A program made the translations under genes and the position numbers. From an uncultured Sphingorhabdus sp. (lineage in GTDB: Bacteria > Pseudomonadota > Alphaproteobacteria > Sphingomonadales > Sphingomonadaceae), in assembly GCA_937873665.1 (NCBI GenBank), contig CALMYW010000345.1, forward strand, positions 1 to 29,296: DNA of 29,296 nt, written 5' to 3'. The notes under the pieces were generated by a model. It was not told where the DNA came from and ran no database searches. It saw only the letters and a list, made by a program, of their open reading frames with translations. This document shows, piece after piece, positions 7,077 to 28,787 of the stretch. How positions within the stretch are numbered: position 1 is the first letter of the stretch; every line of letters starts with the position of its first letter.

Positions 7077-7511
7077 CCCGGTACGGACTTCGGCCATGTC
7101 GATGTGGAAGTAGCCGATGGGGTAGGAGCTGAACTTCCCACGTTTGGGTTTGTCGCCTCCGACTTCGGGCAGCCGGGATATGTCGTGGCGCTGCAAGCAG
7201 CGGTGCAGCGATGAGCGTGTCAGGTGCGGGATCGACGCTTGCAAGGCATAGAGACAGTCGTCCAGCGGCAACAGCGTGTGCTTGCGGAAGGCGACGATCA
7301 TTGCCTCTTCCTCGATGCTCAACACCGTCGAATGGGCGTCCTTGGGGCCAGGGCGGATGTCCACCGTACTCTACCGGCTGCGCCACTTGGCGACCGTCTT
7401 GGGGTTGATGCCGTGCCGCTTGGCGAGAACCCTCAGGCTCTCTTGACTATTTTGTATTGCTCGACGGACTGCCGCTGTCGTGCTGGCGAACCCGTGAAGA
7501 ACTTGGACCAT
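7077..7511 (-). pseudogene. truncated IS481-family transposase with in-frame stop
   Basis: The start and first 36 codons are identical to those of the copy at 28680-28787. After K-W-R-S-R there is a TAG, then S-T-V-D-I-R-P-G-P-K and the IS481 family core up to A-E-V-R-T. The C-terminal DDE residues after the first Asp region are missing, so the product would be inactive. Confidence 0.85.
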
Positions 7512-7569
7512 AGTGCATCCTTCCATTCTTGCATGGATATTGCACCATCAAACTCCGGGACCAAACATC
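7404..7569 (-). repeat. 166-bp inverted repeat, left arm (IS481 5' end)
   Basis: Base-by-base comparison shows that the reverse complement of 7404-7569 is identical over all 166 positions to 28622-28787. Both arms have their IS terminus facing the polysaccharide genes and their transposase reading outward. Confidence 0.97.
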
Positions 7570-8798
7570 TAGCGCGCTGCGCAGGCTTCGATGATTTTCA
7601 GCATCTTTTCCGCCAGCGCCGCCCGATCATACTGCTGTGCAGCCACAGGCCCGTTGCGCGCCAGTTGCTCGCGTATTTTCCAATTATCGTGCAGCACGAG
7701 AAGCCGTTCCACCAACTCGAGGTGGTTTTCCGGCTCAAACGTTAAGCCAATCTCATGCCGGATCACAATCTCGGCCGATTCCCCTTCAACGCCGTGCAGC
7801 ACCGGGATGGCCATACCCATGCATTCGAACATCTTGGACGGAATGACGGTGGTAAACAGTTCAGATTTTTGGAGGTGTATTATCGACGCGTCGAGAATTG
7901 ACCAGTACCGCGTGACCTGATGTTTCGGAACGCTGTTGATGAACAGCATGTTGTTCAGACCTTCGCTTATAGCTCGATCTTCCAGCCTTTGCCGGTGGGC
8001 ACCATCGCCTAGCATCACGATCCGGATTCGTGCAGCGCGTTCGGAGTTGGCCAAGATCTTGGCAGCGTCAATCAAAGTATCGAGGCCATGCGCCATGCCA
8101 TGCGTACCGATGTAGCCGACGACAAAGGCCTCCTTGAGGTCTAGGTCAGCTAGAAGTTCCTGGTCTTTCGGGATAGGCGCAAAGCGTGAAGTATCGACAC
8201 CATTGGTCACTACGAAGATCTTCTCGGGGTCGATCCCGCGATCGACGAGGTTCTGCTTAAAGGCATTGGTGACCGAGACCACTGCGGTTGCCCTGCGGTA
8301 GAGAAACAATTCCAGTCTCTCCAGCAGATCAAGCAGGCGTTTCTTCTTCATGGCGCCTACCGCCCGGATCGATTCCGGCCAGATGTCGCGCAGCTCAAAC
8401 ACCCAGGGTCGGCGCTTGACTATACTGGTGGCATAGGCAGTACAGGCGGTGAAAAATTGCGGCGAAGTGCCGACGATCACATCCACGCGGCGCACGAACA
8501 GCGACGCGAAAAAAGCCGTCGCCATGAAACTGACATAGTCGAGAATGCGCTTGGCGAAGCCCTCATTGCGGGTGATGTAGCTCCACACGCGGATGACGCG
8601 GATGCCGTCCACGCCCTCGCTTTGCCAAATTCTGTTTCGGTATCCGGGAAAGACCTCCCCCTTCGGGAAATTGGGGGCGCAGGTGATTACCGTGACTTGA
8701 TAACCCGCCTTTACCCACTCCCGACAATGCTCGTGGGTGCGGCTGGCCGGCGCATTGACCTCCGGCGGGAAATTATCGGTAAGAAATAGAATGTGCAT
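7569..8798 (-). CDS. wbuB: GT4 glycosyltransferase, WbuB type
   Basis: A 409-residue cytoplasmic glycosyltransferase of the GT-B fold, family GT4, most like the WbuB group (sugar transferases of O-antigen loci). The N-terminus has L-T-D-N-F-P-P-E-V-N-A-P-A, the linker motif R-D-I-W-P-E-S lies at about residues 137-143, N-G-V-D near 204, and the donor-site region P-S-K-M-F-E-C-M-G near 326. The length is normal for the family. It would add one sugar to the lipid-linked repeat unit; E. coli WbuB is assigned to L-FucNAc transfer, but no L-FucNAc synthesis genes are present here, so the donor is open. It follows the heparinase-like gene after 4 bases. Its TAG stop (7569-7571) overlaps the first base of the IS481 repeat, so the last residues may have been set by the insertion. 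Confidence 0.88.
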   Translation of the reverse strand: MHILFLTDNFPPEVNAPASRTHEHCREWVKAGYQVTVITCAPNFPKGEVFPGYRNRIWQSEGVDGIRVIRVWSYITRNEGFAKRILDYVSFMATAFFASLFVRRVDVIVGTSPQFFTACTAYATSIVKRRPWVFELRDIWPESIRAVGAMKKKRLLDLLERLELFLYRRATAVVSVTNAFKQNLVDRGIDPEKIFVVTNGVDTSRFAPIPKDQELLADLDLKEAFVVGYIGTHGMAHGLDTLIDAAKILANSERAARIRIVMLGDGAHRQRLEDRAISEGLNNMLFINSVPKHQVTRYWSILDASIIHLQKSELFTTVIPSKMFECMGMAIPVLHGVEGESAEIVIRHEIGLTFEPENHLELVERLLVLHDNWKIREQLARNGPVAAQQYDRAALAEKMLKIIEACAAR

Positions 8799-8802
8799 GC
8801 GG

Positions 8803-10422
8803 TCACATACTCGTCATCGTCAAGGTGGCGTGCCCAGCCACCAAGGGCAGGACGAGGCAGCGATTGGGAAGGGTGACGCCGAACTCCGGATGCCAACTCG
8901 AGTCCTCCACCATCAACGGCTCGCCTGAACATTGGAGTCGCAATTGCTGGCCGCTGGAAAGCGTCAGGATCGCCCCATCCTCGGTGAGCGCGTTGACGCT
9001 GACCGACGGGTGCAGATGAAAGCGGGCCTTGGCGGGCATATCGATGCTGACAGCATCGGCCACAACAAAGCTGCTAGCCTGGACTTCAAAGCGGCGGGAG
9101 ACGAGCGGCTGCCCGGCAAGATGGCGGTAGCCATCATGGCTGGCCTGCGCGTACAGCGCGCCGCCATCGGATTCCACGCTAACAGACTGTGGCCTCGCGC
9201 GGCGGCCAACGCGGAATCCCGACCAGACTTCGGACGAATTACGCATATCTACGGCCACCGTGTTATGTGCTGCCGTTCCGCGCTGACGCAGGCGTTCCGG
9301 GCCTGTCCCATATTCCGATGTACCCGAATTCACGAACACGCGCTGCCCCGCATAGGACAGCTCAAAGCTCAACGTGTCGGCATGCGCATGGCCGGGCAAA
9401 TAATCTGGACCAATCCTCGCAAGGTCAGCCAATAGCGTGAACGCGCCAGCCTGCATCCTCACATAGCCACTATTTTCAAGGTGGGTGAGTTGTGGCAGGG
9501 CTTCGGAAGCCGGAACATGCAGCCGATAAGCATAGTCACGGAGTTCGGCGTTGTCGGGCGCAATCCCGAACGCGCAATCGTTGAAGAAGGATATGCCACC
9601 GTCCGGGTGGCTCATCGCCTGCAGCCATCGCAGCATCGACGGCACACGCCCGCGCCAGAGCGCGGCGATGCTTTCCCGCCCATAGGCCTCGGCAATGTTG
9701 ATGAGGTCGAGCATGTCTTCGACGGCCAGGGCATGATACATGGGGCTGAGTTCAAATTGCCCCCCATCTAGGAGAAACTGCTCCGAGATTTCGCGCGCCA
9801 GAATGTTGAGGCCCCGTTCAAGCCAGGTTCGCGACTCAGCCCCTTCAAAAAACAGGCCCGCGAAGACCAGGGCCTTTGCATTGGCGAACAGGTGGTTGCC
9901 CAGCAGATGATACTCCAGCCGCCTCATTAGCCAGCGGGCCTGAACGGCGAGGCTGTGGATCGCGACCGCGCTGTGCGCATTCCCGTTCAGCCCCCATTTC
10001 ACCCAGTTCACAATCCGCAGTGACGTTGGATACGGTTCCCACCCCGTACCAGTGCCCGGCGGATTGCCCGCGATCCAGGCTTCGATCAGCGCACGATGCC
10101 AGTCGACCCGCGCACCTGCGCCTTCGCCGTGCAGATCATCGAAATAATGCTGGTTATAACGCCAGAGTTTGGGCTGATCGGGATGATCCCACCCGATCTC
10201 CGTCAGGTCGGCTTCGGCATTCAAAAATCGAAAGCGCGTCGGACTCACTAGGCTGGCGGCGTGTCTGGCGGGTGTTTGCCAACTAACGGGAAGGGGCCTC
10301 AAAGGTGGCGGCGACGTAAGTACAGGCCGAGGACGGCGTAAGGTGAACCAAAGCCTCCCGGAAATCTGCACCGGCCGCAAATGGCGAACGGTGCGCCAGA
10401 AACGGCCCGCTTTGGCAATCAT
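8803..10422 (-). CDS. heparinase II/III-like protein (alginate-lyase fold), cytoplasmic
   Basis: A 539-residue protein with the start seen in heparinase-like proteins of EPS loci (R-H-L-R-P-V-Q-I-S-G-R-L-W-F, residues 14-26). It has a helical toroid region with Y-H-L-L-G-N-H-L-F-A-N (171-181) and F-E-L-S-P-M-Y-H (223-230), and a beta-sandwich region with G-H-A-H-A-D (344-349) and G-T-A-A-H-N-T (382-388). These are the conserved Tyr/His positions of polysaccharide lyases of this class. No signal peptide or membrane segment is visible, so it appears cytoplasmic, unlike catabolic lyases. The ATG at 10422 overlaps the TGA of the upstream wecB-type gene (ATGA), which fixes the start; a longer open frame to 10665 lies inside that gene and is not used. 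Its role in synthesis is not known; neighbours suggest it acts on uronic-acid-containing glycan or intermediates. Confidence 0.85.
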   Translation of the reverse strand: MIAKAGRFWRTVRHLRPVQISGRLWFTLRRPRPVLTSPPPLRPLPVSWQTPARHAASLVSPTRFRFLNAEADLTEIGWDHPDQPKLWRYNQHYFDDLHGEGAGARVDWHRALIEAWIAGNPPGTGTGWEPYPTSLRIVNWVKWGLNGNAHSAVAIHSLAVQARWLMRRLEYHLLGNHLFANAKALVFAGLFFEGAESRTWLERGLNILAREISEQFLLDGGQFELSPMYHALAVEDMLDLINIAEAYGRESIAALWRGRVPSMLRWLQAMSHPDGGISFFNDCAFGIAPDNAELRDYAYRLHVPASEALPQLTHLENSGYVRMQAGAFTLLADLARIGPDYLPGHAHADTLSFELSYAGQRVFVNSGTSEYGTGPERLRQRGTAAHNTVAVDMRNSSEVWSGFRVGRRARPQSVSVESDGGALYAQASHDGYRHLAGQPLVSRRFEVQASSFVVADAVSIDMPAKARFHLHPSVSVNALTEDGAILTLSSGQQLRLQCSGEPLMVEDSSWHPEFGVTLPNRCLVLPLVAGHATLTMTSM

Positions 10423-11516
10423 CGCGATACGAGAAGCTGTTCGAGCGTCGCCACGCAGCGCGGAGCGGTCTGGCCGTCCCATAGCGGCGAGATGCCGCCC
10501 GACTTCCATCTTCCATCGAACAACATGTCGAGCGCCGGAGCCAGCGCGTCGGGATTGCACCCGATCAGCATATTCGTGCCGATCTCGAGCGTCTCCGGCC
10601 GCTCCGTATCGTCCCGCAATTTCAGGCAGGGAGAACCTATCACCATGGTTTCTTCGGTTATCCACCCAGAATCGCTGATGACCGCGAACGCGTTCTTCAC
10701 CAGCCAGTTGAACTGCAGGTAAGGTTGCGGTTCAACCAGATGGATATTGGCCGGCACCTCGCCCAGTACACGCAGCGTCTTGGCGGTGCGGGGATGGGCA
10801 GGAAATATCACCGGCAAATTGCGCGCACCATGCCCGATCGCCGCCAGCATGCGCGAGAAGCCGTCACCCTGATCGACATTGGCCGGGAGATGCAGCGTCG
10901 TGACAAAATAGCCCTTGGGTTCCAGGCCCAACTTGTCAAAGAACTGTGGCTTTTCCAGCCGATCCATGTTGGCGAGCAACGTGTCGATCATCGTGTTGCA
11001 AACGAAGATAATGCGATCTTCGCCAACCCCGGCCTGCCGCAGATTGGCGTTGGCGACCACAGAGGTGGTAAAGAACCAGTCGGTGATGCTTTCGGTGACG
11101 ATCCGGTTCACTTCCTCGGGCATGTTTATGTCGCCCGACCGGATTCCGGCCTCCATATGCGCTACCGGCAGGCAGAGCTTCTTCGCGGTGATCGCGCAGG
11201 CCATCGTCGAGGTGACATCGCCCGGCACCAAGCGCAGGTCCGAGGGCTCCTTTAGCAGCAACTCCTCATAGCGGGCATGATTGCTGCCGGTCTGCTCGGC
11301 CTGACTACCCGACCCCACTTTGAGGCTGACGTCAGGCGCGGGAATGCCAAGCTGGACGAAGAAATCGGCCGACATGCGCGCATCATAATGCTGGCCGGGG
11401 TGCACCACACGGTACCGCAGCGGCCCGCCCTGCGCCGCCCGCTCCTGGATTGCGCGGATGATCGGCGCGATCTTGACGAAATTTGGCCTAGCGCCAGCGA
11501 TGATGTCTACAAGCAA
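10419..11516 (-). CDS. wecB: UDP-N-acetylglucosamine 2-epimerase, WecB type (non-hydrolysing)
   Basis: A 365-residue enzyme interconverting UDP-GlcNAc and UDP-ManNAc. It starts with the family pattern V-D-I-I-A-G-A-R-P-N-F-V-K-I-A-P, followed by H-P-G-Q-H-Y-D, V-P-G-D-V-T-S-T, the active-site segment H-M-E-A-G-I-R-S-G-D-I-N-M-P-E-E-V-N-R, a P-A-H-P-R-T motif, and D-S-G-W-I-T-E-E. The chosen start is TTG at 11516 with AGAGGT just upstream; it places the Rossmann strand at residue 4 as in homologues. The frame is open up to 11816, but the extra 100 residues are Arg-rich, lie inside the next gene and fit no family. It overlaps the downstream heparinase-like gene by four bases, implying translational coupling. 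Confidence 0.9.
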   Translation of the reverse strand: MLVDIIAGARPNFVKIAPIIRAIQERAAQGGPLRYRVVHPGQHYDARMSADFFVQLGIPAPDVSLKVGSGSQAEQTGSNHARYEELLLKEPSDLRLVPGDVTSTMACAITAKKLCLPVAHMEAGIRSGDINMPEEVNRIVTESITDWFFTTSVVANANLRQAGVGEDRIIFVCNTMIDTLLANMDRLEKPQFFDKLGLEPKGYFVTTLHLPANVDQGDGFSRMLAAIGHGARNLPVIFPAHPRTAKTLRVLGEVPANIHLVEPQPYLQFNWLVKNAFAVISDSGWITEETMVIGSPCLKLRDDTERPETLEIGTNMLIGCNPDALAPALDMLFDGRWKSGGISPLWDGQTAPRCVATLEQLLVSR

Positions 11517-11548
11517 AGCTACCTCTAACTGCGGCAAGATACCGACGA

Positions 11549-12262
11549 TTAAACCGGCTTTCGCAGGGACACGATTAGCAAGATGCGCAGGGTCGCCAAG
11601 ACATCCGTCACGTTGACGATCTTTTCGTAGACTAGCCCCGCAAGATAGGTGATCGCTGACAAGCGCAGATATTCGGGTCGGCCTTCGATCAGTTCGATCC
11701 GCTGCACCTTCAGGCCACTCGCCCGCGCGACGGCCCTCACTTGCGCCGCACTGTTTGCGCGATAGCGAGTCGGAAAGGTGTCCACCTCTTCGCGCCCGCG
11801 CCGCTTGTTGATCCATTGGTGAAAGCCGTGCGGCGTCCAGCGCGCAATGAGCGGCATATAATGGTTGCGGTTCGGCGTCTTGAACAGTAACTCACCGCCG
11901 GGCTTCAACACGCGAGCAATCTCTGTGAAAACGCCGACCGGATCGTCAAGATGCTCCATGACATTGTCGGCAAAGACCAGGTCGAATGTCGCATCCGGAT
12001 AGGGGATGGCACCCGCATCCGAGATACGCCCTTCATCGAGCAACGGGTTTTGCTCGACGCGAGGATCGAGGTCGATGCCGCACACGCGGCCCGCGATCCC
12101 GCGGAAATTCATTGCCGCGACGATGCCTGCTCCCGCGCCGATGTCCAGAATCTGTGAGCCGGGTGTCACGCTTTGCAATATCCTGTCCCGGAACAGGGTA
12201 TCATCCCAGTTTCCCTGATATTTTGGGTAAAATGTCCCGTCAATCCACGCAACAAGTCCCAT
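11549..12262 (-). CDS. class I SAM-dependent methyltransferase
   Basis: A 237-residue methyltransferase of the UbiE/UbiG-like class. Motif I is I-L-D-I-G-A-G-A-G (about residues 38-46), motif II ends in G-I-D-L-D-P, and the post-I region reads F-A-D-N-V-M-E-H-L-D-D-P, followed by L-K-P-G-G-E. The AAGGAGGT upstream fits ATG 12262 better than the GTG one codon earlier. The start overlaps the TGA of the preceding two-domain oxidoreductase. The substrate may be a sugar nucleotide or lipid-linked sugar (O-methylation), inferred only from the locus. The C-terminal part (about 190-225) is hydrophobic and may contact the membrane. Confidence 0.8.
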   Translation of the reverse strand: MGLVAWIDGTFYPKYQGNWDDTLFRDRILQSVTPGSQILDIGAGAGIVAAMNFRGIAGRVCGIDLDPRVEQNPLLDEGRISDAGAIPYPDATFDLVFADNVMEHLDDPVGVFTEIARVLKPGGELLFKTPNRNHYMPLIARWTPHGFHQWINKRRGREEVDTFPTRYRANSAAQVRAVARASGLKVQRIELIEGRPEYLRLSAITYLAGLVYEKIVNVTDVLATLRILLIVSLRKPV

Positions 12263-14373
12263 CACTGCACCTCCTTCGCCAGTTTGATCGACACCCGGCT
12301 GCTTTCAACAACCTCGTCAAGCGGGATGGTCGCGGCGTATCCCTTTCGAATTGCGTTCAAAAACAGCGACACGGACTGGTTCGCACCCTTATCTTGCCGC
12401 CAAAGATTCATCTTTCGGAACGTGGGCCAGCCCCAGCCGCGCAGCTTGAGGAAATTGTCGAGTTGCAGAATGCGCCCCGCAGTGAAGACCTCCACCCGTT
12501 CCTTGGGAAAGCCCTTGTCGCCATTGGCGAGATAGTGGATGGTGCCAACCGACCCGTCAGCAAACTCCAGCGTCAACGTCACCTTGTCGCTTCGGACCGG
12601 CACCGTGGCATGCCTGCCCAATGCCACCGCTCGATGGGCGATGATCGGCGCACCTACCAGATGGCGGGCGAGGTCGACGAAGTGGCAGGCCTCGCCGATG
12701 ATGCGGCCACCGCCAAGTGCGGGATCTTGCGTCCAATGATCGGGCGGTATTTCGCCGGCATTGACGGTAATGATCACGTTCTTGGGCTGGTCGACTGACG
12801 CGAGCAGAGCCTTCATCTTGATCACCTGTGGCGCAAAACGCCGATTGAAACCGAGCATCAGCTGCTGGTTTGGGCGGCCCTCCGCTTCACGCTTGATCTC
12901 CGCCAGATCGTCCAGCGTCAGGCAAAGCGGCTTCTCGCAGAACACATGCTTGCCCGCCTGTAGCGCCGCCAGAACCTGACGCGCATGGGCATCATGGCGC
13001 GTCGCAATAACAACCGTGTCGATCTCTGCGCTGTCGAGCACGGTGGCCGCATCGGTAGCGGCCTGAGCAAAACCGAACTTCTTGCCGAAATACACGGCGC
13101 TGACCCCGCCGCTGCTGACCACGGTATGGAGGTTGGCGCCCGCAGCTTGGAACGCGGGGATTAGCACGCGCCCCGCATAGTTGCCTGCCCCCAGGAAGCC
13201 GACCGTGCCCTTTCCCGGTACCGGCGCGGCTCCAAGGCTGCTCTGCCGCGCGGGCTGCGCCGTAAGATCAGGCTGGGGATAGGTCAGCACGATGCCCAGC
13301 GACGGCTCACCTGATGTCAAAAGCGACAAGGCCCTTTCGCCCTCCTCGATGGGAAAACGGTGGGTAATCAGCGACGCCACATTGAGCACGCCAGCGGCCA
13401 TCAGGTCCAGAACCGCCTCAAAATTGCGCTGTTCAGTCCAACGCACGAAGCCGATCGGGTAGTCCTGCCCGCCCTCTTCATATGCCGGGTCGTATCGGCC
13501 CGGGCCGTAGGAGCACGATACCTGGAAGCTTAGTTCCTTTTCGTAGAAGTCGGCGCGGCTGAGTTCGAGCCCTACCACACCCACCAGCACAATGCGCCCG
13601 CGCTTCCGGCACATGCGGGCCGCTTGGCTTACCGGCTCGTTGCTTTTTGTAGACGCGGTGATGATGACGGCATCAACACCCTGCCCTCGCGAAAAGCTCG
13701 CCGCGCGGACAAGCACATCTTCCCCCGCGCCGGGGTTGACAGTTTCGGCGCCGAACTGCCGCGCCATTTCCAGCCGCTTGGAATCAATATCCACGCCCAG
13801 CACCCGGCAGCCCTGCGCCCGGAGCGTCTGGACGGTCAGCAGGCCGATAAGGCCCAAACCGGTGACCACGACGCACTCGCCTAGCGTCAGTTGCGCCAAG
13901 CGGATGCCTTGCAGCCCGATGGCCGCAAGCGCCGTGAAACTGGCTTCTTCATCGGAGACGCTTTCAGGAATGCGAGCGCACAGGTTCTTCGTTACCGCCA
14001 CGATTTCGGCATGCTTGCCGTTGGAAACAACCCGGTCGCCGACAGCGAAACCCTCGGCTCGGCTTTCGATCACCTGCCCGACGTTGCAATATCCTAGCGT
14101 CAGCGGTTGATCGAGCTTGGAGCGCACTGCATCGAGCGTCGCCGAAAGACCGTCGGTACGGGCCTTTTCCAGCACCTGCTTGACCTTGTCGGGCTGTGAA
14201 CGGGCCTTCTGGATCAGGTTGCCCTTGCCGAATTCGACCAGCATGCGCTCCGTTCCCGCCGAAACGAGGCTTCGGGTCGTGCCGATCAACACTTGCCCCG
14301 GGCCTGCCGACGGGCTGGGCACGTCCGCGACCTCGGTCTTGCCAGTACTCAGTGACTGCAGAATCTGCTTCAT
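12262..14373 (-). CDS. two-domain oxidoreductase: MDR dehydrogenase fused to GFO/IDH/MocA domain
   Basis: A 703-residue fusion. Residues about 1-370 are a medium-chain (alcohol dehydrogenase-like) domain with Rossmann motif G-L-G-L-I-G (about 166-171) and V-D-I-D for NAD binding; the usual zinc-site G-H-E motif is not seen. Residues about 385-700 are a GFO/IDH/MocA domain with G-F-L-G-A-G-N-Y-A-G and the E-K-P-L-C-L motif. Proteins with this architecture occur in EPS and O-antigen loci, often beside heparinase-like and WbuB-type genes, as here. They presumably oxidise or epimerise a sugar through a keto intermediate; the reaction is not established to my knowledge. ATG 14373 is chosen over the upstream TTG because it starts the family pattern M-K-Q-I-L-Q. 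The gene overlaps the next one. Confidence 0.87.
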   Translation of the reverse strand: MKQILQSLSTGKTEVADVPSPSAGPGQVLIGTTRSLVSAGTERMLVEFGKGNLIQKARSQPDKVKQVLEKARTDGLSATLDAVRSKLDQPLTLGYCNVGQVIESRAEGFAVGDRVVSNGKHAEIVAVTKNLCARIPESVSDEEASFTALAAIGLQGIRLAQLTLGECVVVTGLGLIGLLTVQTLRAQGCRVLGVDIDSKRLEMARQFGAETVNPGAGEDVLVRAASFSRGQGVDAVIITASTKSNEPVSQAARMCRKRGRIVLVGVVGLELSRADFYEKELSFQVSCSYGPGRYDPAYEEGGQDYPIGFVRWTEQRNFEAVLDLMAAGVLNVASLITHRFPIEEGERALSLLTSGEPSLGIVLTYPQPDLTAQPARQSSLGAAPVPGKGTVGFLGAGNYAGRVLIPAFQAAGANLHTVVSSGGVSAVYFGKKFGFAQAATDAATVLDSAEIDTVVIATRHDAHARQVLAALQAGKHVFCEKPLCLTLDDLAEIKREAEGRPNQQLMLGFNRRFAPQVIKMKALLASVDQPKNVIITVNAGEIPPDHWTQDPALGGGRIIGEACHFVDLARHLVGAPIIAHRAVALGRHATVPVRSDKVTLTLEFADGSVGTIHYLANGDKGFPKERVEVFTAGRILQLDNFLKLRGWGWPTFRKMNLWRQDKGANQSVSLFLNAIRKGYAATIPLDEVVESSRVSIKLAKEVQ

Positions 14374-14470
14374 AGAATTTGAATTTCCCAAATTGCATTA
14401 ATCAAGGCGATCGGAACTTGTTGATGATCAGGCCAGTGACGATGGCGTGAGGCCGAATGATCCGGTCGCG

Positions 14471-15493
14471 TCATTTCTTGCCGTGTTTCATCATCAGAAC
14501 AGGCTTTTCGATAACGACCCAAGACAGCACCGCGCAGGCCGCAGAAATGCCGAGAAGGAGGCCAAGCGCGCCCCATGACGCAAGCCCGCCGAGCGCCAAA
14601 TAGGCGTTCAACACCGGCATATGGTAAAGGTAAATCCCATAACTGACGTCATTGCCCTTCAGTATCCGCTCACTTGCCTTCGGAAGTGTGAAGGCTGCTG
14701 ACAGGACACAGGCAAAGAGAATTATCGCCAGAAACGTGTTGATGCCGTTCCCGGAATTACGCAGCCCGGCATATTTGAAAATCGCCGAACATATCAGATA
14801 GACGACCAGCCAGATCACAAACTTTCCAGCAACAAAATGCCGCACCTGCGGCCATAGCTGCTGTGCCACCACGCCTGACAGGAATAGCCCCAGCCATGGC
14901 ACGATGCTGACCTGCAGGAGTTTGGCAGGCAGCGTATCTGTTCCGTAAATGAAAGACAGATAAAATACGTTTACGAGTAGCGCTATTACCGTAATCGGTA
15001 CAAAAAGCTGCAGTTTCCTAGCGCCCGCTATCCAATAAAGGATAGGGAGAAGCAGATAATATTGCATTTCCACGGATATCGTCCACAAGCTGCCGTTGAG
15101 GACCCCCACGCCGTAGCCCCGGAGAAACTCCGGGTTATAGAACTGAAAAAATGTGAGCTGGCCCAATATCCAGAACCAGAACCCCCGACTGGTCCAGGGC
15201 ACAGTGTAGATCAGCAGGACGGCTAGCAGCGTCACGCTGAAGCACCACCACAAGCCGGGATATATCCGCAGAAGTCGGTTGCGAAAATAGCGACGGGTGT
15301 CGCTATTCAGTTCCAAGGAGCGTGATACCAGAAATCCAGACACGAAGAAAAAAATGGGGACACCCGGGAAGAGGCCAATAACATCGACAAACATCGATCT
15401 AGACAGATTGAGATGGTGGACGATGTGGACAATGGCCACCTGCACCGCAGCAAAAAGCCGGACCAGATCAAAATTGTTGTTGCGTTCTTCCAT
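14471..15493 (-). CDS. membrane acyltransferase, OafA/acyltransferase-3 family
   Basis: A 340-residue integral membrane protein with about ten segments (PF01757 type). The N-terminus has N-F-D-L-V-R-L-F-A-A-V-Q-V and H-I-V-H-H, the conserved His region of the family, then F-F-F-V-S-G-F-L-V-S-R and the motif L-W-T-I-S-V-E-M-Q-Y-Y. Such enzymes O-acylate (usually acetylate) glycans at or across the inner membrane. ATG 15493 is preferred: a GGGG stretch lies 8 bases upstream and the family pattern begins at once, whereas the first in-frame start at 15535 would overlap the upstream methyltransferase by 23 bases. An 80-base gap separates it from the downstream oxidoreductase gene; nothing is recognised there. 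Confidence 0.87.
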   Translation of the reverse strand: MEERNNNFDLVRLFAAVQVAIVHIVHHLNLSRSMFVDVIGLFPGVPIFFFVSGFLVSRSLELNSDTRRYFRNRLLRIYPGLWWCFSVTLLAVLLIYTVPWTSRGFWFWILGQLTFFQFYNPEFLRGYGVGVLNGSLWTISVEMQYYLLLPILYWIAGARKLQLFVPITVIALLVNVFYLSFIYGTDTLPAKLLQVSIVPWLGLFLSGVVAQQLWPQVRHFVAGKFVIWLVVYLICSAIFKYAGLRNSGNGINTFLAIILFACVLSAAFTLPKASERILKGNDVSYGIYLYHMPVLNAYLALGGLASWGALGLLLGISAACAVLSWVVIEKPVLMMKHGKK

Positions 15494-15512
15494 GATCGAA
15501 GCCCCAATCCCC

Positions 15513-16229: not shown

Positions 16230-16310
16230 ATCGCTACATATTCTTTCATAAGCTGCGCCGGGTTCGAAACCACTTCATAAGGCAATTAGCCGCCCGATAC
16301 GCTGAGACCA

Positions 16311-17498: not shown

Positions 17499-17517
17499 GA
17501 TAGACTCCACGCGACGC

Positions 17518-18891: not shown

Positions 18892-18916
18892 ATTGCCGAG
18901 CTTTTCAGTTTTCCCA

Positions 18917-20038: not shown

Positions 20039-20044
20039 GGATTG

Positions 20045-21142: not shown

Positions 21143-21145
21143 AGC

Positions 21146-22465
21146 TTAGGCTTTCCTTTGTTCAGCGATGTTGGCAAGTGCATCGGGGATGCGAAACGGC
21201 AAGAGAATCGACCGCGTCATCATCTTGAAGACCGGTCGCATATCCTTATGCAGCAGCAGCACGATGTAGGAGGACATCGCGTAGGAAACTAGCGTTGCGT
21301 AGGCCGCACCGATAGCACCAAACTTCGGGATGAGGAAGTAATTCAAGCCAACATTGGCAATCGCCCCCAAGCCATGGCTTAGCATCGAAAATTTGAGCGC
21401 CCCTTCAATGAGTATCCATTTGCTGAATGCTGTACGCATGAAAATGAAAATCGCAGACCAGATGTGAACGATAAGTATCTCCGCGGCGGCGGCGTATTGA
21501 GGGCCGTAGAGCGATTCAATGATCACATGAGCGGAGAAGGTGACGATGATAGCCGCGATCAGCGCGGTGGTGAATAAGAGGTCCGTCAGCGACTGCATCT
21601 GGCGGTAGAAACATTCCTGACTGCTAGCGCGCCCCTTAATGAGGTAGGGAAATACCACTGAGGTGAGCGCCACCGGGAAAAAATACCAGGCTTCGGAAAT
21701 GCTGGCCGCCACCGCATAGTGACCCACATGCGTTTTGCCGAGCATAGCGTTGATCATCACTTGGTCAATTTTGAGGTTCACCGTGGCAAGGATCGCCCCG
21801 ACAAACAGAAAGACACCGCGCCCGGTGAGGTCCTTGGCTAGCGCCTTTGAATAGTTCGTGATCGCCAACGCGCCCGCAGCGTAGCGACGGACAATCACCA
21901 CATATGCAATGGTGAGCCCCGCATATTGAAGGATGAAAGTGCCCGCGATCCAGGGCAAGGGGATCTCAAGAAAGGAGAGGCCCGCGCGCAGTATCGCCCC
22001 GGCCACCTGCATCACAGTTCGCGCAATGGCGCCGTCCCTGAAGTTGTGACGACCTTGCAGCCAGTAATCGAGAACCTCATAGGGGCGGGGCAACAGCGAC
22101 ACCGCCATGAAGATCACCACCCACCGATCATATGCGGTCAGATTGGGTGTCGCGAAGGCCATGCTGATCACGATCACCATCGCCACGGCATAACCGATCA
22201 GCTTAAGCACGAAGGCTGTGGCAAGCACTGATCGCCAGCTATCTGGCCGATCAAGACATTCCTTCACGACAAGCCCGTTAAGGCCGAAATTGCCAGAAAC
22301 CGCAAACAGCGAGGTGAGCGAGAGCGCAAACGATAGGGTTCCGAAATCAGCTGGCCCATAATAGCGAGCCACTATTATCATTGAAAGAAATGTCGTGCCG
22401 GCGCCGACGACCTTTTCTCCCATGAGCCACGAAAAACCCTTCAGGATTTTGGTTCGCCCTGTCAC
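21146..22465 (-). CDS. wzx: Wzx-type flippase (polysaccharide transporter family)
   Basis: A 439-residue membrane protein with about twelve helices, of the PST/MATE-like superfamily. The opening K-G-F-S-W-L-M-G-E-K-V and Y-Y-G-P-A-D-F-G-T-L-S-F-A are typical of Wzx and RfbX. It moves undecaprenyl-linked repeat units to the periplasmic face for polymerisation. The start is GTG 22465, four bases after the stop of the pyruvyltransferase gene; no strong ribosome binding site is seen, so translation is probably coupled. The next in-frame ATG (residue 15) would cut into the first helix. Confidence 0.92.
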   Translation of the reverse strand: MTGRTKILKGFSWLMGEKVVGAGTTFLSMIIVARYYGPADFGTLSFALSLTSLFAVSGNFGLNGLVVKECLDRPDSWRSVLATAFVLKLIGYAVAMVIVISMAFATPNLTAYDRWVVIFMAVSLLPRPYEVLDYWLQGRHNFRDGAIARTVMQVAGAILRAGLSFLEIPLPWIAGTFILQYAGLTIAYVVIVRRYAAGALAITNYSKALAKDLTGRGVFLFVGAILATVNLKIDQVMINAMLGKTHVGHYAVAASISEAWYFFPVALTSVVFPYLIKGRASSQECFYRQMQSLTDLLFTTALIAAIIVTFSAHVIIESLYGPQYAAAAEILIVHIWSAIFIFMRTAFSKWILIEGALKFSMLSHGLGAIANVGLNYFLIPKFGAIGAAYATLVSYAMSSYIVLLLHKDMRPVFKMMTRSILLPFRIPDALANIAEQRKA

Positions 22466-22468
22466 CGA

Positions 22469-23653
22469 TTAGAACTCGTTATCTGATGCTGCTGAATCGG
22501 CTCGTGACCAATTCTGACCCGTGATCACACGGCAGGCCTGAGCCCACATCTCCAGAACCTGGTCCTTCAAGAATGCGTTCTTGGAAACAAGTGTGGACCG
22601 GATGCGCTGGTGGGCTTCTTCGTCGATCAGCATCCGTATCTTTTCTCGATTGGTGGCCCAATCATTACGGGGATCGAGCAATCCTTCGGGGAAACCATAA
22701 TCACGGAACAAATGCTCGTACTTGTGGGCCCATCCGATGCCGAACGATGGGACGCCTTGGGACAGCGCGCTCACCAGCCCGTGGAAACGCCCGCCGATGG
22801 TTCCCCGGCAAGTCCCCAAAATCCACTTTATTTCCAGTGGGTCGTCCGCCGAAACAATGGATATTTCCCCATCCACTTGCTGCACGATTGTTTCCGCGAG
22901 CAGTCGGTCGCGAGGGCCTTCGTGGATAAGGAAGAACGGCTTGGCCCCCGCTTCAACAAGAAATTTTGTCGCGTTCACCAAGAAATCGACATAAGCCGCG
23001 CCAGTTTGGGCATCGCTGCGCTCAATCATCATTCCGCTTGCAACGATGGCAATGCCCTGATGCGGGATGGACGTGTTTGAACTCGCGACCCCTTCCAGCA
23101 GGTTTGTGAAATCTGGACAGACATGAATATTGTCAGCTTTTCCAGCAACATCGGTAAGATAGCGGTAGGACTCTTCATCGCGCGCGAAAATCAGGTCCGC
23201 CCTCTTAACCACTTGGCGCATTGCCCAGCGGGAAAGCGGCTTCCGGAAGGGACCAAGCGCCTGCGGCAAAAGAATGATTTTCGCGTCCTTGCGCGCCTTG
23301 CGGCACTGCTGGGCCAGTTCGACGCAGCCTCCCACACCGTTCTTGTCCGAATAGCCAAAGCCGGAAATGTCGATAATGACATCGACATCCTTGTCGGTAA
23401 CCACCCCATACATCTCGCGGACGCTTTTCGGGAACAGCCTGACCAGCCCCCCGAATTGCAGTCCCTTGCGCCAATACGACGCCTTTTGCAGGCTACCGTG
23501 CAGCGCCCTCGCCTTGAAGGGCGCGGAAACGGGGTTGGGAGCCATTGCGAGCTCATAGTCGAGGCCCATGGTGTCAAGCTGTTGCAGAACAGCCGTAAGC
23601 ATGAGTTGGGCGCCCTTGTTGACGAACCCTGCTTTGCGAATTTCGATGATCAT
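22469..23653 (-). CDS. polysaccharide pyruvyltransferase family protein
   Basis: A 394-residue protein of the PS_pyruv_trans family (PF04230; WcaK, CsaB and AmsJ relatives). The start reads K-A-G-F-V-N-K-G-A-Q-L-M-L, followed by D-I-S-G-F-G-Y-S-D and L-P-Q-A-L-G-P-F, and the family's C-terminal signature G-G-R-F-H-G-L-V-S-A-L-S-Q-G-V-P followed by W-A-H-K-Y. Members transfer pyruvate from PEP to glycans as a ketal, adding negative charge. It lies between a methyltransferase and Wzx, which fits decoration of the lipid-linked unit before flipping. Residual uncertainty concerns the substrate, not the family. Confidence 0.9.
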   Translation of the reverse strand: MIIEIRKAGFVNKGAQLMLTAVLQQLDTMGLDYELAMAPNPVSAPFKARALHGSLQKASYWRKGLQFGGLVRLFPKSVREMYGVVTDKDVDVIIDISGFGYSDKNGVGGCVELAQQCRKARKDAKIILLPQALGPFRKPLSRWAMRQVVKRADLIFARDEESYRYLTDVAGKADNIHVCPDFTNLLEGVASSNTSIPHQGIAIVASGMMIERSDAQTGAAYVDFLVNATKFLVEAGAKPFFLIHEGPRDRLLAETIVQQVDGEISIVSADDPLEIKWILGTCRGTIGGRFHGLVSALSQGVPSFGIGWAHKYEHLFRDYGFPEGLLDPRNDWATNREKIRMLIDEEAHQRIRSTLVSKNAFLKDQVLEMWAQACRVITGQNWSRADSAASDNEF

Positions 23654-23683
23654 GTGCGCTTAATCTTAGAGGTAAAAGGGAAT

Positions 23684-24424
23684 TCACACCTGTGCGACGA
23701 CGCGGAAATGCGAGAACAGGAAGTAAGCTGCGACCCGATTACCCAGCAGCGCCTGGCCCAGGGAACCGAGAAAATTCGGCGTCGTCCACTTGATACTGGT
23801 CACGCGGAGCCCCGCTTGCTCCATCAAGCCTCCCCAGGTGGTCGGCGATTGATGGATAGACCAGTCGATCGATGGCATCACCGGGCTCCGGAAACCGAGA
23901 TCCCCGAAGAAATTCTTGCGATCGCAATCGGTCACGATGAGCAGGCCGCCGGGGTTAAGGTGCGACTTAGCCTGCTCAAAAAACGTGATATACGCTTTGC
24001 GCGAAGATTCGTTCTCCAACAGTGTCGAGCATTCTTTCTCGGCGATGTGGTTTATGCTGTTCGCCATGACAATGACGTCAAACTTCCGATCACAGGACGC
24101 CAGATAATCCTGGACATATTCCGGGGATATCGACGCTTGGAGGTTAGAGGAAATCTCACCCTTCATCCTTTCAAACACCTTGCGGACGTTCTGAGTCGCG
24201 CCTGCGCTTTCAGGCTCCAGACAGACCGCACTCGCCCCGTTTACCGCGGCCCAGATCGTGAGCAGCCCGGTGCCGCCCCCCACATCGAGCACATTGCGCT
24301 CCTGGAAGGAGACCCCCTCAAAGATATAGTTCAAAAAGGTCCGCAACCGGCCAGGCTTGGTGTAGGCATTGCTGCGCACCGCCACGTCAAAAAACCGTTG
24401 TTGCAAGTCAGGCCCTTCATTCAT
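23684..24424 (-). CDS. class I SAM-dependent methyltransferase
   Basis: A 246-residue methyltransferase with motif I V-L-D-V-G-G-G-T-G (about residues 45-53), C-L-E-P-E-S as the acidic loop, and V-I-V-M-A-N-S-I-N-H-I later. AGGAG eight bases before the ATG is the clearest ribosome binding site in the - strand block, and the gene is the first after the IS630 remnant, so it may open a separate transcript. A TTGACT at 24477-24482 (- strand) could be a -35 box, but no good -10 follows. The substrate is unknown. Confidence 0.82.
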   Translation of the reverse strand: MNEGPDLQQRFFDVAVRSNAYTKPGRLRTFLNYIFEGVSFQERNVLDVGGGTGLLTIWAAVNGASAVCLEPESAGATQNVRKVFERMKGEISSNLQASISPEYVQDYLASCDRKFDVIVMANSINHIAEKECSTLLENESSRKAYITFFEQAKSHLNPGGLLIVTDCDRKNFFGDLGFRSPVMPSIDWSIHQSPTTWGGLMEQAGLRVTSIKWTTPNFLGSLGQALLGNRVAAYFLFSHFRVVAQV

Positions 24425-24478
24425 AATTTTTTCTCCTCAGTAAGGGATCGTTTTCATCTGTCACTGCGCATTTAGAAG

Positions 24479-24517
24479 TCAAAGCGCCGGACGAGACGGC
24501 CCCGCCCGACGCTTTGA
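24479..24517. other. imperfect inverted repeat upstream of methyltransferase gene
   Basis: TCAAAGCGCCGG (24479-24490) and CCGACGCTTTGA (24506-24517) pair over 12 bases with one mismatch around a 15-base loop. No T-run follows on either strand, so it is not a typical terminator. It could be an operator or leader hairpin for the gene at 24424, or part of an old repeat element. The rest of 24425-24580 shows nothing I recognise. Confidence 0.35.
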
Positions 24518-24580
24518 TCGGGGTTGGGATCAGCGGAGTTGGGTTCTCCCATGCCATCGGGTTGGCTGGCCGCGGAACGC

Positions 24581-25416
24581 TAGTGGATTGATCGGAAAGG
24601 AAGAGTCCGATCGCGGATTCCCGTTTGGGTGGTGGCGTGCGATACTGGGGATGCGTACTGCGATCAGCATTTCCGTCACGGCTGCAGACAGAGTTCGACT
24701 GGAGGCGATCTTCGCGGCGCGCAGATCGCCTCACAAACATGTTGGGCGGGCGCGGATCATTCTCCTGAGCGATCAGCGCCTCGGTACCGGTGCGATCATG
24801 GCCGCCACCGCGAAGTCCAAGACCTGCGTGTGACGCTGACAGGAGCGCTTCATGACCGAGGGTGTCGAGGGTTTGTTGCGCGACAAGACCCAGCCACCGG
24901 ACATCGCGCCACTCGACGCCAGACTGGTTGACGAGGTTGTGTCGCTGACACTCGAAGCTCCTGGTCACGAAGCCACCCATTAGACGGTGCGCGCTATGGC
25001 CAAGGCCATTGGCATAGCTGCGGCTTCGATTGTGACAATCTGGCATGACCACGGCCTTACGCCCCACTGCTGGCGCAGTTTCAAGCTGACCAATGACAAG
25101 GCTTTTTGCTGAGAAGCTTCACGATGTCGTCGAGCTCTATGTCTCTAAGCTTAGCTGGCGCGGCATCGCCGATGGACCTTCCACTTCGTGCCAACGTCCT
25201 GCTCGTTGCTGAATGCCGTAGAGGGCTTCTTCGCCAAGCTCACCCAGCGGCGCCAGAAAACGGCGCATTCCATTCGGTGGTTGAGCTGCAAGCAGTCATC
25301 AACCGTTTCATCAAGGAACATAATCAGGACTCGCGACCATTCGTCAGGAAGGCTGACCCAGACCAGATCATTGCAGCCGTCCGTCGTGGGCACCAAATGT
25401 TGGAATCAATCCACTA
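24581..25416 (+). mobile_element. IS630-family element, decayed, with intact ends
   Basis: The ends are perfect 13-base inverted repeats, CTAGTGGATTGAT (24580-24592) and ATCAATCCACTAG (25405-25417), each containing TA, the usual IS630 target duplication. Between them lies a broken transposase gene with a large internal deletion, giving about 835 bases where full-length relatives are usually 1.1-1.2 kb. The element lies within the - strand operon and is oriented against it, between the dehydrogenase stop (25444) and the next methyltransferase gene. Confidence 0.88.
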
Positions 25417-25417
25417 G
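24651..25417 (+). pseudogene. IS630-family transposase, internally deleted with nonsense codons
   Basis: The reading begins M-R-T-A-I-S-I-S-V-T-A-A-D-R-V-R-L-E-A-I and continues to K-S-K-T-C-V, then two TGA codons replace Trp (24831-24839 region), and a TAG replaces Trp after H-E-A-T-H near 24981. An extra T near 25107 shifts frame before E-K-L-H-D-V-V-E-L-Y-V-S. The gene then jumps to R-H-R-R-W-T-F-H-F-V-P-T-S-C near 25170, so about 120-140 codons of the catalytic core are gone. The end M-L-E-S-I-H-stop lies in the right terminal repeat, as in intact relatives. Confidence 0.88.
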
Positions 25418-25443
25418 CACCCGCTGCTCCGCATCTTTGCCGA

Positions 25444-26733
25444 TCACAGACGAATATCGCTATCGCCGCTCGCGAAGATATACTTCAAATCATAGAGAAC
25501 GTGATCCTGCTTGCCCAAGGCACGCATTCTTTCGATCCCCATGCCCCTGAACTCGTCATGCGCAACAGCCAAGACGATCCCGTCATAGGTCGTTGGCTCG
25601 GGTTGCTCGGTCAGGGCCAGACCATATTCTTGGACAGCGTCAGTAGGGGCCACCCAGGGATCATGAATATCAACCTGAACACCGTACTCGACCAGTTCCG
25701 ACACGATATCCACCACGCGGGTGTTCCGCAAATCCGGGCAGTTTTCCTTAAAAGTCAACCCCATGACCAGCACGCGCGCGCCGTCGACCTGAATGCGACG
25801 CTTGAGCATCTCCTTCACCAGCCGCCCGGCAACATAGGCACCCATCTGGTCATTGAGACGGCGACCCGCCAGAATGACCTGTGGATGATAACCGATGGCC
25901 TCAGCTTTGTGCGTCAAGTAATAGGGATCGACCCCAATGCAGTGGCCGCCAACCAGACCGGGCCGGAATGGCAGGAAGTTCCACTTCGTGCCAGCGGCCT
26001 TGAGCACAGCTTCAGTGTCGATGCCCAGCTTGTTGAAAATGATCGCCAGCTCGTTGATCAGGGCGATGTTGAGGTCGCGTTGGGTATTTTCGATCACCTT
26101 GGCCGCTTCGGCAACCTTCAGGCTTTCCGCCTTGTAGGTGCCTGCCGTGATGATCTGCCCATAAAGCGCGTTGATGCGGTCTGCCGCATCATACGTCGAT
26201 CCCGATGTCACTTTGCTGATCGATGGCAAGCGATGCTGCTTGTCGCCCGGATTGATCCGCTCCGGCGAATAGCCGACAGTAAAGTCGTGATTGAACTGCA
26301 GTCCCGAAACTTTCTCCAGCACCGGCACACAGACTTCCTCCGTGCAGCCGGGATAGACAGTCGATTCAAAAATGACCGTATCGTCGGCCTTCAACACTTT
26401 TCCGACCGTCTCCGATGCACTGACCAGTGACCGCAGGTCTGGCTGCTTGTGCACGTCAATCGGCGTCGGCACTGTCACGATGTAGACGTTGGAGATCCGC
26501 AGATCCTCAAGATCGGTGGAGAAGCTGAGCTTGGTTGCCGCCTGCAACTCGTCCGACCCCATCTCCAGCGTATCGTCCCGACCTTGGCGCAGAGCCTCGA
26601 TGCGGGCCTGGTTGATATCAAAGCCAACCACGGGCCGCTTCTTACCGAACTCAACGGCCAGTGGCAGCCCAACATAGCCTAGCCCTATGACGGCTATGCG
26701 CGCGCCGTCGATCCATTCTGTTGTCTCGCTCAC
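25444..26733 (-). CDS. UDP-N-acetylhexosamine 6-dehydrogenase, TviB/WbpA type
   Basis: A 429-residue NAD-dependent nucleotide-sugar dehydrogenase. It has a Rossmann motif [14 protein letters not shown] (near residues 12-25), [25 protein letters not shown], and the catalytic cysteine in [16 protein letters not shown]. The last two patterns fit the group that oxidises UDP-GlcNAc or UDP-GalNAc to the uronic acid rather than UDP-glucose, but specificity needs testing. GTG 26733 is chosen because AGGA lies six bases upstream; the earlier TTG (26739) is too close to it. It follows the epimerase gene after 8 bases, so the two should act together on one precursor. Confidence 0.92.
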
Positions 26734-26741
26734 GTTCAATC

Positions 26742-27785
26742 CTATTTCTGGTAGTAATCACGGAACCAAGTGACGAATTGGGCAATCCCATCACAGTAAT
26801 CCGTTTGGGGGCGGTAATCGGTCAGACGCTGGAGCAGGGAGGCATCGGCCCAGGTAGCAGGAACATCGCCCGTCTGCATCGGCATGTAGTTGCGGATCGC
26901 CCTCTTCCCCAGTTGCTCCTCGACAGCCTCGATGAAGTCGAGCAGGCAGACCTTTTCTGAATTGCCAATGTTGACCACGCGAAACGAGGCGACCGGTGAC
27001 AGGCTGTCTCCCTCGACGATGTCATCCGCACTGGCCGGGCGAACCGGCGGCGTGTCGATCAGCAGGCGAATGGCTCGGACAAGATCGCCCACGTAAGTGA
27101 AGTCGCGGTACATTTCGCCGTGGTTGTAGATATCGATCGGCCGACCCGCGAGAATGGCGTCCACGAACTTGAACAGCGCAAGGTCGGGGCGCCCCCACGG
27201 TCCGTAGACCGTGAAGAAACGGAATATGGTGGTTGGCAGGTTCCAGAGATGGGCATAGGAATGACCCATGTTCTCGGTCGCTTTCTTCGTGGCGGCGTAG
27301 ATAGTCAGCTGGGTTTCCGTTCGCTCGGTCTCGGTGAACGGCATATCCTCGTTCGCGCCATAAACCGATGAGGTCGAGGCCATGAGCAGGTGCTCTACTT
27401 CGAGCTTGCGCGCCGCTTCCATGACATTGAACGTGCCGACAATGTTACTGTCGATGTAGGCGCGCGGGTTTTCCAAGCTGTATCGCACCCCGGCCTGAGC
27501 CGCGAGGTGCACGATCACCTGCGGCTGGAAGGTTTCGGCCACATTCCATAGCTCGTCATTGTCCTCCAGCATGCCCTCTGTTGCGGCAAAGCGGGGATGC
27601 TGCAGCAGCATCTGGTGTCGGCGACGTTTAAGCATTACGTCGTAGTAGTCGGTCATTCCGTCGAAGCCGTGGACCTCGAAGCCCTCCGCCAGCAGCAGCT
27701 GGGCGAGATGGAAGCCGATGAAGCCAGCCGTGCCAGTGATCAGCACGCGTGGCGGTTCTTGTCCGTTAGTTTCTGTGAACACCAT
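26742..27785 (-). CDS. NAD-dependent UDP-sugar (uronate) 4-epimerase
   Basis: A 347-residue extended short-chain dehydrogenase/reductase. It has the NAD motif [11 protein letters not shown] (near residues 18-28), D-Y-Y-D-V-M-L-K, the catalytic S-S-V-Y-G and Y-A-A-T-K-K pattern, and [12 protein letters not shown]. These match UDP-glucuronate 4-epimerases (CapI, LspL). With the adjacent dehydrogenase it could make UDP-GalA or UDP-GalNAcA. The N-terminal dozen residues precede the usual family start. No strong ribosome binding site is seen at ATG 27785. Confidence 0.9.
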
Positions 27786-27803
27786 CTATCTTTTCAATGT
27801 TGT

Positions 27804-27838: not shown

Positions 27839-27879
27839 GTTTTGCGAACTGCCGATAATGCAGGCCTTCAGCCCTAACC

Positions 27880-28254
27880 TTACCCCGTTCGATCCCGCAC
27901 GAGGGTGGTAGGCTGCTGTATAAACTCGCCGCAGAGCTGTTCAAGCTCGGTGCGGATCGCCTCGTATTCGGCCATCTTGCGCTCGATGAAGCCCGCCGCC
28001 AAGCGGGCGCGGTGGGCGATGCCTTCCGGGGTCAAGAGATAAACATAGCCCAGCTTGTTCTTTGAGGCCTTAAAGTTGCCGAGCTTTATGTGACCCTTTT
28101 CGATCAGCGCCTTCACGCAGAAGTTGATGGCTCCGAGGCTCATGCCAAGTTCCTCTGCTATCTCGCGCTGCGAGGCGTCGGGCCGACTTTCGAGGAGACG
28201 CAGTACCCTGAAATGCACATCTTCGCGCTTCTGAGCGATTTTGTCACTGACCAT
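27880..28254 (-). CDS. MarR-like winged-helix regulator, EPS-associated type
   Basis: A 124-residue DNA-binding protein. Residues about 5-75 form a winged helix with the recognition part S-Q-R-E-I-A-E-E-L-G-M-S-L-G-A-I-N-F-C, then K-A-L-I-E-K-G-H-I-K-L and the wing K-L-G-Y-V-Y-L-L-T-P-E-G-I. A charged helix at about 80-110 should dimerise. This pattern fits the EPS-associated MarR group found beside exopolysaccharide loci. ATG 28254 begins the family pattern; the frame is open to 28338, but the added 28 residues are Cys/Arg-rich and unlike the family. As the first gene of the - strand block it probably controls the cluster. Direction of control is not known. Confidence 0.85.
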   Translation of the reverse strand: MVSDKIAQKREDVHFRVLRLLESRPDASQREIAEELGMSLGAINFCVKALIEKGHIKLGNFKASKNKLGYVYLLTPEGIAHRARLAAGFIERKMAEYEAIRTELEQLCGEFIQQPTTLVRDRTG

Positions 28255-28318
28255 GGGATCGACCGATAAAACTCGGACCAAAGCTACCGCACGGCAGGTG
28301 AAGCGGCACCTTCCGTGT

Positions 28319-28338
28319 TTGCTCAGAACTACGAGCAA
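28319..28338. promoter_or_regulatory. inverted repeat upstream of the MarR gene, possible operator
   Basis: TTGCTC (28319-28324) and GAGCAA (28333-28338) form a perfect 6-base dyad with an 8-base spacer, about 65 bases upstream of the regulator start. A third copy of the half site lies in TTGAGCAA at 28411-28418. The 14-base half-site repeat distance is suitable for a winged-helix dimer. I see no clear -35/-10 pair to anchor it. Confidence 0.35.
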
Positions 28339-28426
28339 GCTAAAGCCCCTCGTTCACACCTGAACGCGTAGGCGATCCCGACAGATTCGAAAAGGGGTTT
28401 CCTGTGTCCCTTGAGCAAATTGTCAG

Positions 28427-28621
28427 CTAGAGCGGTTTTCGACCGGTATGAATCGATGAGGGGTTCCCCTCTGGGCTGATTTCTGATTCAGAATCCGTGC
28501 TGGTGAAGGAGGCCGGTATGGATGGGTCACTCACTCTCGACGGATTTGCAGGTTCACCTTCTCGCGGCGTTTGACGAGGGGCTGTGAGGTGGTCCCGCCT
28601 TCCTGGACAGTTTGGCGGCTG
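28427..28621 (+). mobile_element. unidentified IS remnant with truncated leader ORF
   Basis: The segment begins with CTAG and has short dyads (GAGGGG-TT-CCCCTC at 28458-28471). A strong GAAGGAGG precedes ATG 28518, which opens only 18 codons (M-D-G-S-L-T-L-D-G-F-A-G) before TGA 28572-28574. This looks like the start of a transposon gene cut off by later events; an IS66-type accessory protein is one guess. It ends where the IS481 repeat begins. Confidence 0.35.
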
Positions 28622-28787
28622 GATGTTTGGTCCCGGAGTTTGATGGTGCAATATCCATGCAAGAATGGAAGGATGCACTATGGTCCAAGTTCTTCACGGG
28701 TTCGCCAGCACGACAGCGGCAGTCCGTCGAGCAATACAAAATAGTCAAGAGAGCCTGAGGGTTCTCGCCAAGCGGCACGGCATCAAC
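28622..28787 (+). repeat. 166-bp inverted repeat, right arm (IS481 5' end)
   Basis: Identical to the reverse complement of 7404-7569. It holds the IS terminus (TGTTTGGTCCCGG from 28624), the leader and the first 36 codons of the transposase from ATG 28680 (M-V-Q-V-L-H-G to R-H-G-I-N). It is cut at 28787 by the IS3-family sequence. Confidence 0.97.

Follow-up and report, generated by a model that had tools for sequence, protein, structure and literature searches.

Truncated IS481 copies form identical inverted arms around a sphingomonad exopolysaccharide block

Bordetella pertussis undergoes genome rearrangements with IS481 at their boundaries, and PMC4888882 traces them to homologous recombination between inverted repeats. 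The locus studied here resembles this system in its IS family and in the inverted copies around a segment. However, each B. pertussis genome has 231 or more IS481 copies and its rearrangements are recognized by comparing isolates (PMC4888882), whereas our locus has 164 bp in common between two copies and no rearrangement was seen. A second parallel is the O-antigen cluster of Salmonella group D2, where an H-repeat remnant lies at a recombination junction and is proposed to aid exchange (PMC3715488). Our locus likewise has an IS remnant at a polysaccharide cluster; in group D2, however, both the donor and the recipient cluster have been recognized and the junction agrees with them, whereas none was identified for our locus.

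The IS copies themselves are closest to alphaproteobacterial IS481 elements (for instance those of Bosea vaviloviae and of a Rhizobium sp. NXC14 plasmid), with which they share the 5' end, the tip, the transposase N-terminus and the CTAG-like flank. In contrast to these, our copies are truncated and dead, and their outer ends are lost. As for the polysaccharide genes, the same ligase-wza-wzc(-hypothetical) module stands beside a variable block in Sphingobium sp. AntQ-1 pl3, Novosphingobium sp. ES2-1 p2, Sphingobium sp. TKS pTK1, S. baderi and the genomes G260, G093 and G248. The contents of these blocks differ from ours and no IS481 arm was found in the fetched stretches. The named sphingomonad plasmids keep the module and differ in their biosynthesis genes, which in three of four plasmids (L083, L101, and L102) lie upstream of the ligase.

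The window, that is, the whole stretch of DNA analyzed, is 29,296 bases long (Table 1). Its export module opens with the ligase, which has the same place before wza-wzc in Sphingobium and Novosphingobium plasmids. The wza-like protein has an 80% match in Sphingobium sp. TKS pTK1, and no NCBIfam or Pfam match was obtained for the hypothetical protein after wzc. Read from its regulator, the biosynthesis block encodes the MarR-like protein, an epimerase/dehydratase, a TviB-type dehydrogenase, methyltransferases, a pyruvyltransferase-like protein, Wzx/Wzy-like proteins and glycosyltransferases, then a bi-domain oxidoreductase, a wecB-type epimerase, a heparinase-like protein and finally the glycosyltransferase GT1; an acyltransferase is also encoded. 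Matches above the cut-offs were obtained in the block for wecB (TIGR00236) and TviB (NF011729), and the Wzx match is weak (E 6e-12). Relatives of the MarR regulator (64% and 46%) stand at the far end of the exopolysaccharide blocks of G260 and G093, and 12 of the 298 genomes searched have a close MarR-type regulator (E <= 1e-20). GT1 is full length, the best 25 homologues beyond the window's own being 407–414 aa long. Truncation of GT1 by IS insertion was ruled out, as its C-terminus agrees with G260 and its length with the homologues.

Together, Wza (below cut-off), Wzc, Wzx (weak), the Wzy_C protein and the glycosyltransferases make up the gene set of a Wzx/Wzy-dependent exopolysaccharide locus. 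The window possibly encodes two Wzy-type proteins, one at 98–1606 (Wzy_C match) and one at 17518–18891, which has no family match and which we infer to be Wzy-like from its position only. A nitroreductase-like protein with weak family matches (20045–21142) is encoded within the polysaccharide operon. No priming sugar transferase was found among the annotated ORFs of the window. The region before the ligase gene (base 98), where the relatives G394 and G137 (L103 and L104) have a priming sugar transferase, lies outside our contig. Among the window ORFs annotated by NCBIfam/Pfam, a general annotation only, there is no dedicated recombinase.

Table 1. Coordinates of the features of the window, with the evidence for each
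Feature	Position	Strand	Evidence or remark
O-antigen ligase/polymerase-like membrane protein (Wzy_C)	98..1606	+	Pfam PF04932, E 3e-13
wza-like polysaccharide export protein	1677..2405	+	NCBIfam EpsE / pepcterm_export, below curated cut-offs
wzc-like chain-length determinant / tyrosine autokinase	2433..4676	+	NCBIfam TIGR01007, above cut-off
Hypothetical protein after wzc	4732..5907	+	24–30% matches, same position in L100–L102 and G260
IS5-family transposase fragment	6136..6872	+	87% to Croceicoccus marinus plasmid, annotated IS5 family
Further debris	6873..7084		ORF 6951–7214
Left IS481 copy, 5' 483 bp, tip toward block	7085..7567	-	77% to Bosea IS481 over 490 bp
Left arm	7404..7569	-	166/166 to 28622–28787
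Left IS481 block-side target-like flank GCTAGA	7568..7573	-	Contains GT1 TAG stop (7569–7571)
GT1, WcaI-like GT4 glycosyltransferase, 409 aa	7569..8798	-	NF007640, below cut-off
Rest of block	8803..27785	-	NCBIfam and Pfam; most matches below cut-off
Decayed IS630-family element inside block	24579..25417		Plasmid records up to 77.5% alike, several of them annotated as IS630
MarR/winged-helix regulator, block start	27880..28338	-	HTH_24 and MarR domains
IS630-family fragment	28426..28584		82–84% to Sphingopyxis, Sphingobium, Novosphingobium plasmids, several annotated IS630
Right IS481 block-side target-like flank GCTGGA	28618..28623	+	
Right arm	28622..28787	+	IS481 5' 164 bp = 28624–28787, tip toward block
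IS3-family fragment	28788..29243	+	83.6% to Sphingomonas paeninsulae plasmid; HTH_Tnp_1 domain

The original prediction described an exact inverted pair around the block, and direct comparison bore this out, the right arm being the reverse complement of the left one at every position. A repeat finder extended the pair to 170 nt at 99% (7404–7573 versus 28618–28787) and detected no second one of 25 nt or longer in the window. Both ends of the block carry long exact inverted repeats, as an invertible cassette would. A chance origin of the repeat was ruled out by its length, which is far beyond chance. The 166-base arm consists of 164 IS bases and 2 flank bases, and the 170-nt repeat of the same 164 nt and a 6-nt target-like flank with one difference, the two inner flanks being alike at 5 of 6 positions. 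The repeat is thus limited on its inner side by the IS tip plus this 6-base flank and, on the outer side of the right arm, by an IS3-like tip.

Transposase homology and tip positions confirm that the arms are 5' pieces of an IS481-family element with their tips toward the block. With the Bosea IS481 transposase as query, tblastn gave 73% at 7074–7511 (minus) and 80% at 28680–28787 (plus), and the transposase reads away from the block in both arms. The DNA comparison of the left copy given in Table 1 was made with the Bosea vaviloviae element (L082), to which the right copy is 83% alike over 169 bp; the right arm is also 85.5% alike to a Sphingomonas parapaucimobilis IS481 end. The tip, TGTTTGGTCC, was placed at 7567 on the minus strand and at 28624 on the plus strand, with an uncertainty of one base, since in most copies examined it is preceded by an A. 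In other replicons the tip is TGTTTG(A/G)TCC, mostly after a CTAG-like flank. Tip and flank read GAACTAGA in the Bosea copy, with CTAG on both sides, GCATTAGA in the Rhizobium NXC14 copy, with 6 bp, ATTAGA, repeated at the far end, and GGTCTAAG in the Sphingobium TomTYG72 copy. Further sphingomonad copies mostly have CTAGA, TTAGA or close variants as flank, and the Agrobacterium vitis copy reads GGCATGGG. As stated in parts of the IS481 literature, most members of the family make 6-bp duplications (PMC10045372), and an apparent 4-bp duplication can be copied along with the element (PMC11708052). Because an IS481 element may carry its apparent duplication in this way, we put little weight on duplications.

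Both copies in the window are truncated remnants. The full element measures about 1.04 kb, a length taken from the Bosea copy. The left copy continues as IS481 for 319 bp beyond the shared part, to about 7085, near which it meets other IS debris including the IS5-family piece. The right copy keeps 164 bp, stops at 28787 and is apparently cut by the IS3-family fragment, which begins at 28788. The outer halves were predicted to be missing from both copies, which is correct in kind, but the copies are unequal, the left one keeping about 483 bp. Translation of the left copy shows an in-frame TAG after 46 codons of the transposase, beyond the shared part, and neither copy has an intact transposase frame. 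Only the inner termini are present in the window, the outer ends and the outer target flanks being lost.

Other mobile elements have left traces in the window. On the left, ORF 6212–6469 in the IS5-family piece has a DUF772 transposase domain (Pfam), and the debris next to it is presumably IS66-like, to judge by a motif. On the right, the first 304 bp of the IS3-family fragment are 83.6% alike to a region of Novosphingobium KA1 that is annotated as an IS3-family transposase. The decayed IS630-family element at 24579–25417, with a methyltransferase gene on one side and that of the TviB-type dehydrogenase on the other, shows that an IS has also struck within the block. A stretch of 228 bp (5908–6135), flanked by the hypothetical gene and the IS5-family piece, has a G+C content of 32.5%, against 56–60% on either side, and no match in the fetched loci; at E <= 0.01, no homology to these loci was detected for 5880–6140, 28300–28430 and 28580–28623.

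Among the relatives, the sphingomonad G260 alone matches the left junction gene for gene. It has ligase-wza-wzc-hypothetical on the plus strand, followed on the minus strand by GT1-heparinase-…-bi-domain oxidoreductase-…-epimerase-marR. The convergent stops of the hypothetical gene and of GT1 are three bases apart (L141, ORFs 5383–6606 plus and 6610–8040 minus), and no IS481 transposase or arm DNA was found over 59.7 kb. One of the two findings that together were to count against the original prediction was the same gene order in relatives with no IS481 at either edge; G260 has this order in plan, and its middle block genes partly differ from those of the window. In G093, ligase-wza-wzc (plus) is followed by a minus-strand block that ends in epi-wecC-marR and whose inner edge gene is not GT1, and no IS481 was found in the fetched 39.8 kb. 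Blocks reversed relative to the module and without arm DNA are also present in L063 (Sphingomonas MAG; wecC-wecB-heparinase-oxidoreductase) and in L019 (Amorphus coralli; wecB-GT1-heparinase-oxidoreductase).

At E <= 1e-120, GT1 was found in 5 of 397 family genomes, namely G260, G248, G272, G370 and G118. In the last four, GT1 is co-directional with the ligase, with the caveats that the ligase and wzc matches of G118 are weak (34% and 24%), that G272 gave no wza hit in the panel and has its nearest wzc on the opposite strand, and that some intervening genes of G370 are on the other strand. No IS481 arms were found in the fetched stretches of these five genomes, nor in those of G178, G148, G016 and G093. 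The 40 surveyed loci were likewise free of IS481 arm DNA, and neither G260 nor G248 has an exact inverted 15-mer between the edge stretches that were compared. These 40 loci were drawn from the better-scoring places (275 of 397 genomes matched) and scored for orientation by mechanical ORF tiling with a 70/30 cut. Ten loci were convergent, 15 co-directional and 13 mixed after L120 and L132, which have no ORF after wzc in the stretch, were dropped to leave 38 (raw tally 10, 17, and 13); this gives only a rough picture because several loci belong to other exopolysaccharide locus types. Side by side, L108, L130, L141 and L168 show the sphingomonad block beside ligase-wza-wzc in both orientations between species. 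Both orientations are natural states, and the convergent one has a precedent without IS481.

Identity at 164 of 164 positions bounds the divergence of the two copies only below about 1.8% (95%). As a control, pairs of copies of this IS type, one pair per genome, were compared in five sphingomonad genomes. The G061 pair, copies of a related element that lie 2.56 Mb apart, shows complete identity over 1053 bp; the other four pairs are 75–88% alike over aligned stretches of 141–302 bp. Identical copies in one genome occur without a special mechanism, yet they are not the rule. The IS481 end was found in 11 of 298 sphingomonad genomes, 75–85% alike (E <= 1e-20, two candidates scored per genome), and it lies away from the ligase locus in G093 and G126, the two genomes with both positions available. 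The perfect identity had been ascribed to recent duplication or gene conversion, neither of which is needed: because the identity ends at the IS tip and the target flank, two insertions of one element suffice. Gene conversion was set aside as superfluous.

Our analysis makes it very probable that the arms stem from two IS481 insertions, since truncated, at the ends of an exopolysaccharide operon that was already in place. Seen directly are the anatomy of the copies, their tips and, in a relative, a locus of the same plan in which no IS481 was found. The starting locus would have had ligase-wza-wzc-hypothetical on the plus strand and the regulator-led operon marR…GT1 on the minus strand, in a convergent orientation that presumably predates the insertions. 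The same IS481-family element would then have inserted twice, presumably independently, first or second into the convergent gap, at the stop codon of GT1, and the other time upstream of marR, and the inner flanks would be nearly identical because the element favors CTAG-like targets. Each copy would later have lost its outer part, the right one stopping at the IS3-family element and the left one joining other IS debris, and the 164-bp identity would be the leftover common IS sequence. Some observations speak against this reading. Both copies face the block at its edges, which is not required of two random insertions; the right inner flank has CTGG rather than CTAG, and the A. vitis copy lacks a CTAG-like left flank; and the outer target flanks, which bear on independence, are lost. 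Selection would probably remove most insertions within the operon, which makes the edge positions less remarkable, though an IS630 element did land inside.

An inversion in the lineage of the window is conceivable because four of the five GT1-bearing genomes have GT1 co-directional with the ligase. A past flip through the inverted IS481 copies, perhaps once longer, would start from a G248-like co-directional ancestor, and low-rate flipping might continue. Perfect and inverted arms fit such a flip, and among epidemic B. pertussis isolates IS481 was at the rearrangement boundaries in 20 of 25 cases (PMC4888882). By analogy, homologous recombination between the arms is possible in principle, as originally proposed. 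The orientation of the block, opposite to wza-wzc, had also been mentioned in connection with a flip; it cannot serve as evidence of one, because the fetched stretches of G260 and G093, both convergent, gave no IS481, and those of G248, G272, G370 and G118, which have GT1 on the ligase strand, gave none either. Orientation thus varies between species without such arms, the G260 and G248 edges compared offer no exact inverted 15-mer in their place, and 164 bp is a short homologous-recombination substrate for a 21-kb inversion. We consider a past or rare flip through the arms unlikely. That the 164-bp remnants act as a functional switch, flipping the 21-kb operon between convergent and co-directional states beside wza-wzc and altering its expression, with flips via any available repeats explaining both orientations among sphingomonads, is in our estimation very unlikely. 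An invertible serotype cassette is an unproven reading and one that is not needed. The term exchangeable, also used in the original prediction, holds in an evolutionary sense, the content varying beside a conserved ligase-wza-wzc, but no exchange at the arms was seen.

Two inverted copies of one IS around a gene block also recall a composite transposon that once delivered the block and is now disabled by the loss of its outer ends, and comparable sphingomonad clusters do lie on plasmids. However, the block boundaries are operon ends that G260 has without IS481, and with the outer ends absent in both copies neither the unit nor its duplication can be demonstrated; we give this origin only a very slight chance. 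A composite transposon with usable outer ends was ruled out as the present state, in agreement with the earlier view that the block is no longer mobile as a unit. An effect of assembly appears very improbable as well. The window is very probably a whole contig, perhaps a metagenomic one, since the longest contig listed for a protein cluster that includes GT1 is 29,296 bases long, and an exact repeat of 164 bases may exceed the read length, which would leave the orientation of the segment or the identity of the arms to the choice of the assembler. Against this, the two copies have different outer and inner neighbors, the left one continues as IS481, and the resulting gene order is a known natural one, that of G260.

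The favored reading, two truncated insertions at the edges of an existing operon, makes this locus an example of how IS scraps common to both ends of an operon can resemble a designed switch; the whole arrangement looks like ordinary jumping-gene debris. In sphingomonads, the variable polysaccharide block next to the conserved ligase-wza-wzc module can point either way, and the stretches examined showed no IS481 arms; a recent inversion should therefore not be read from orientation alone.
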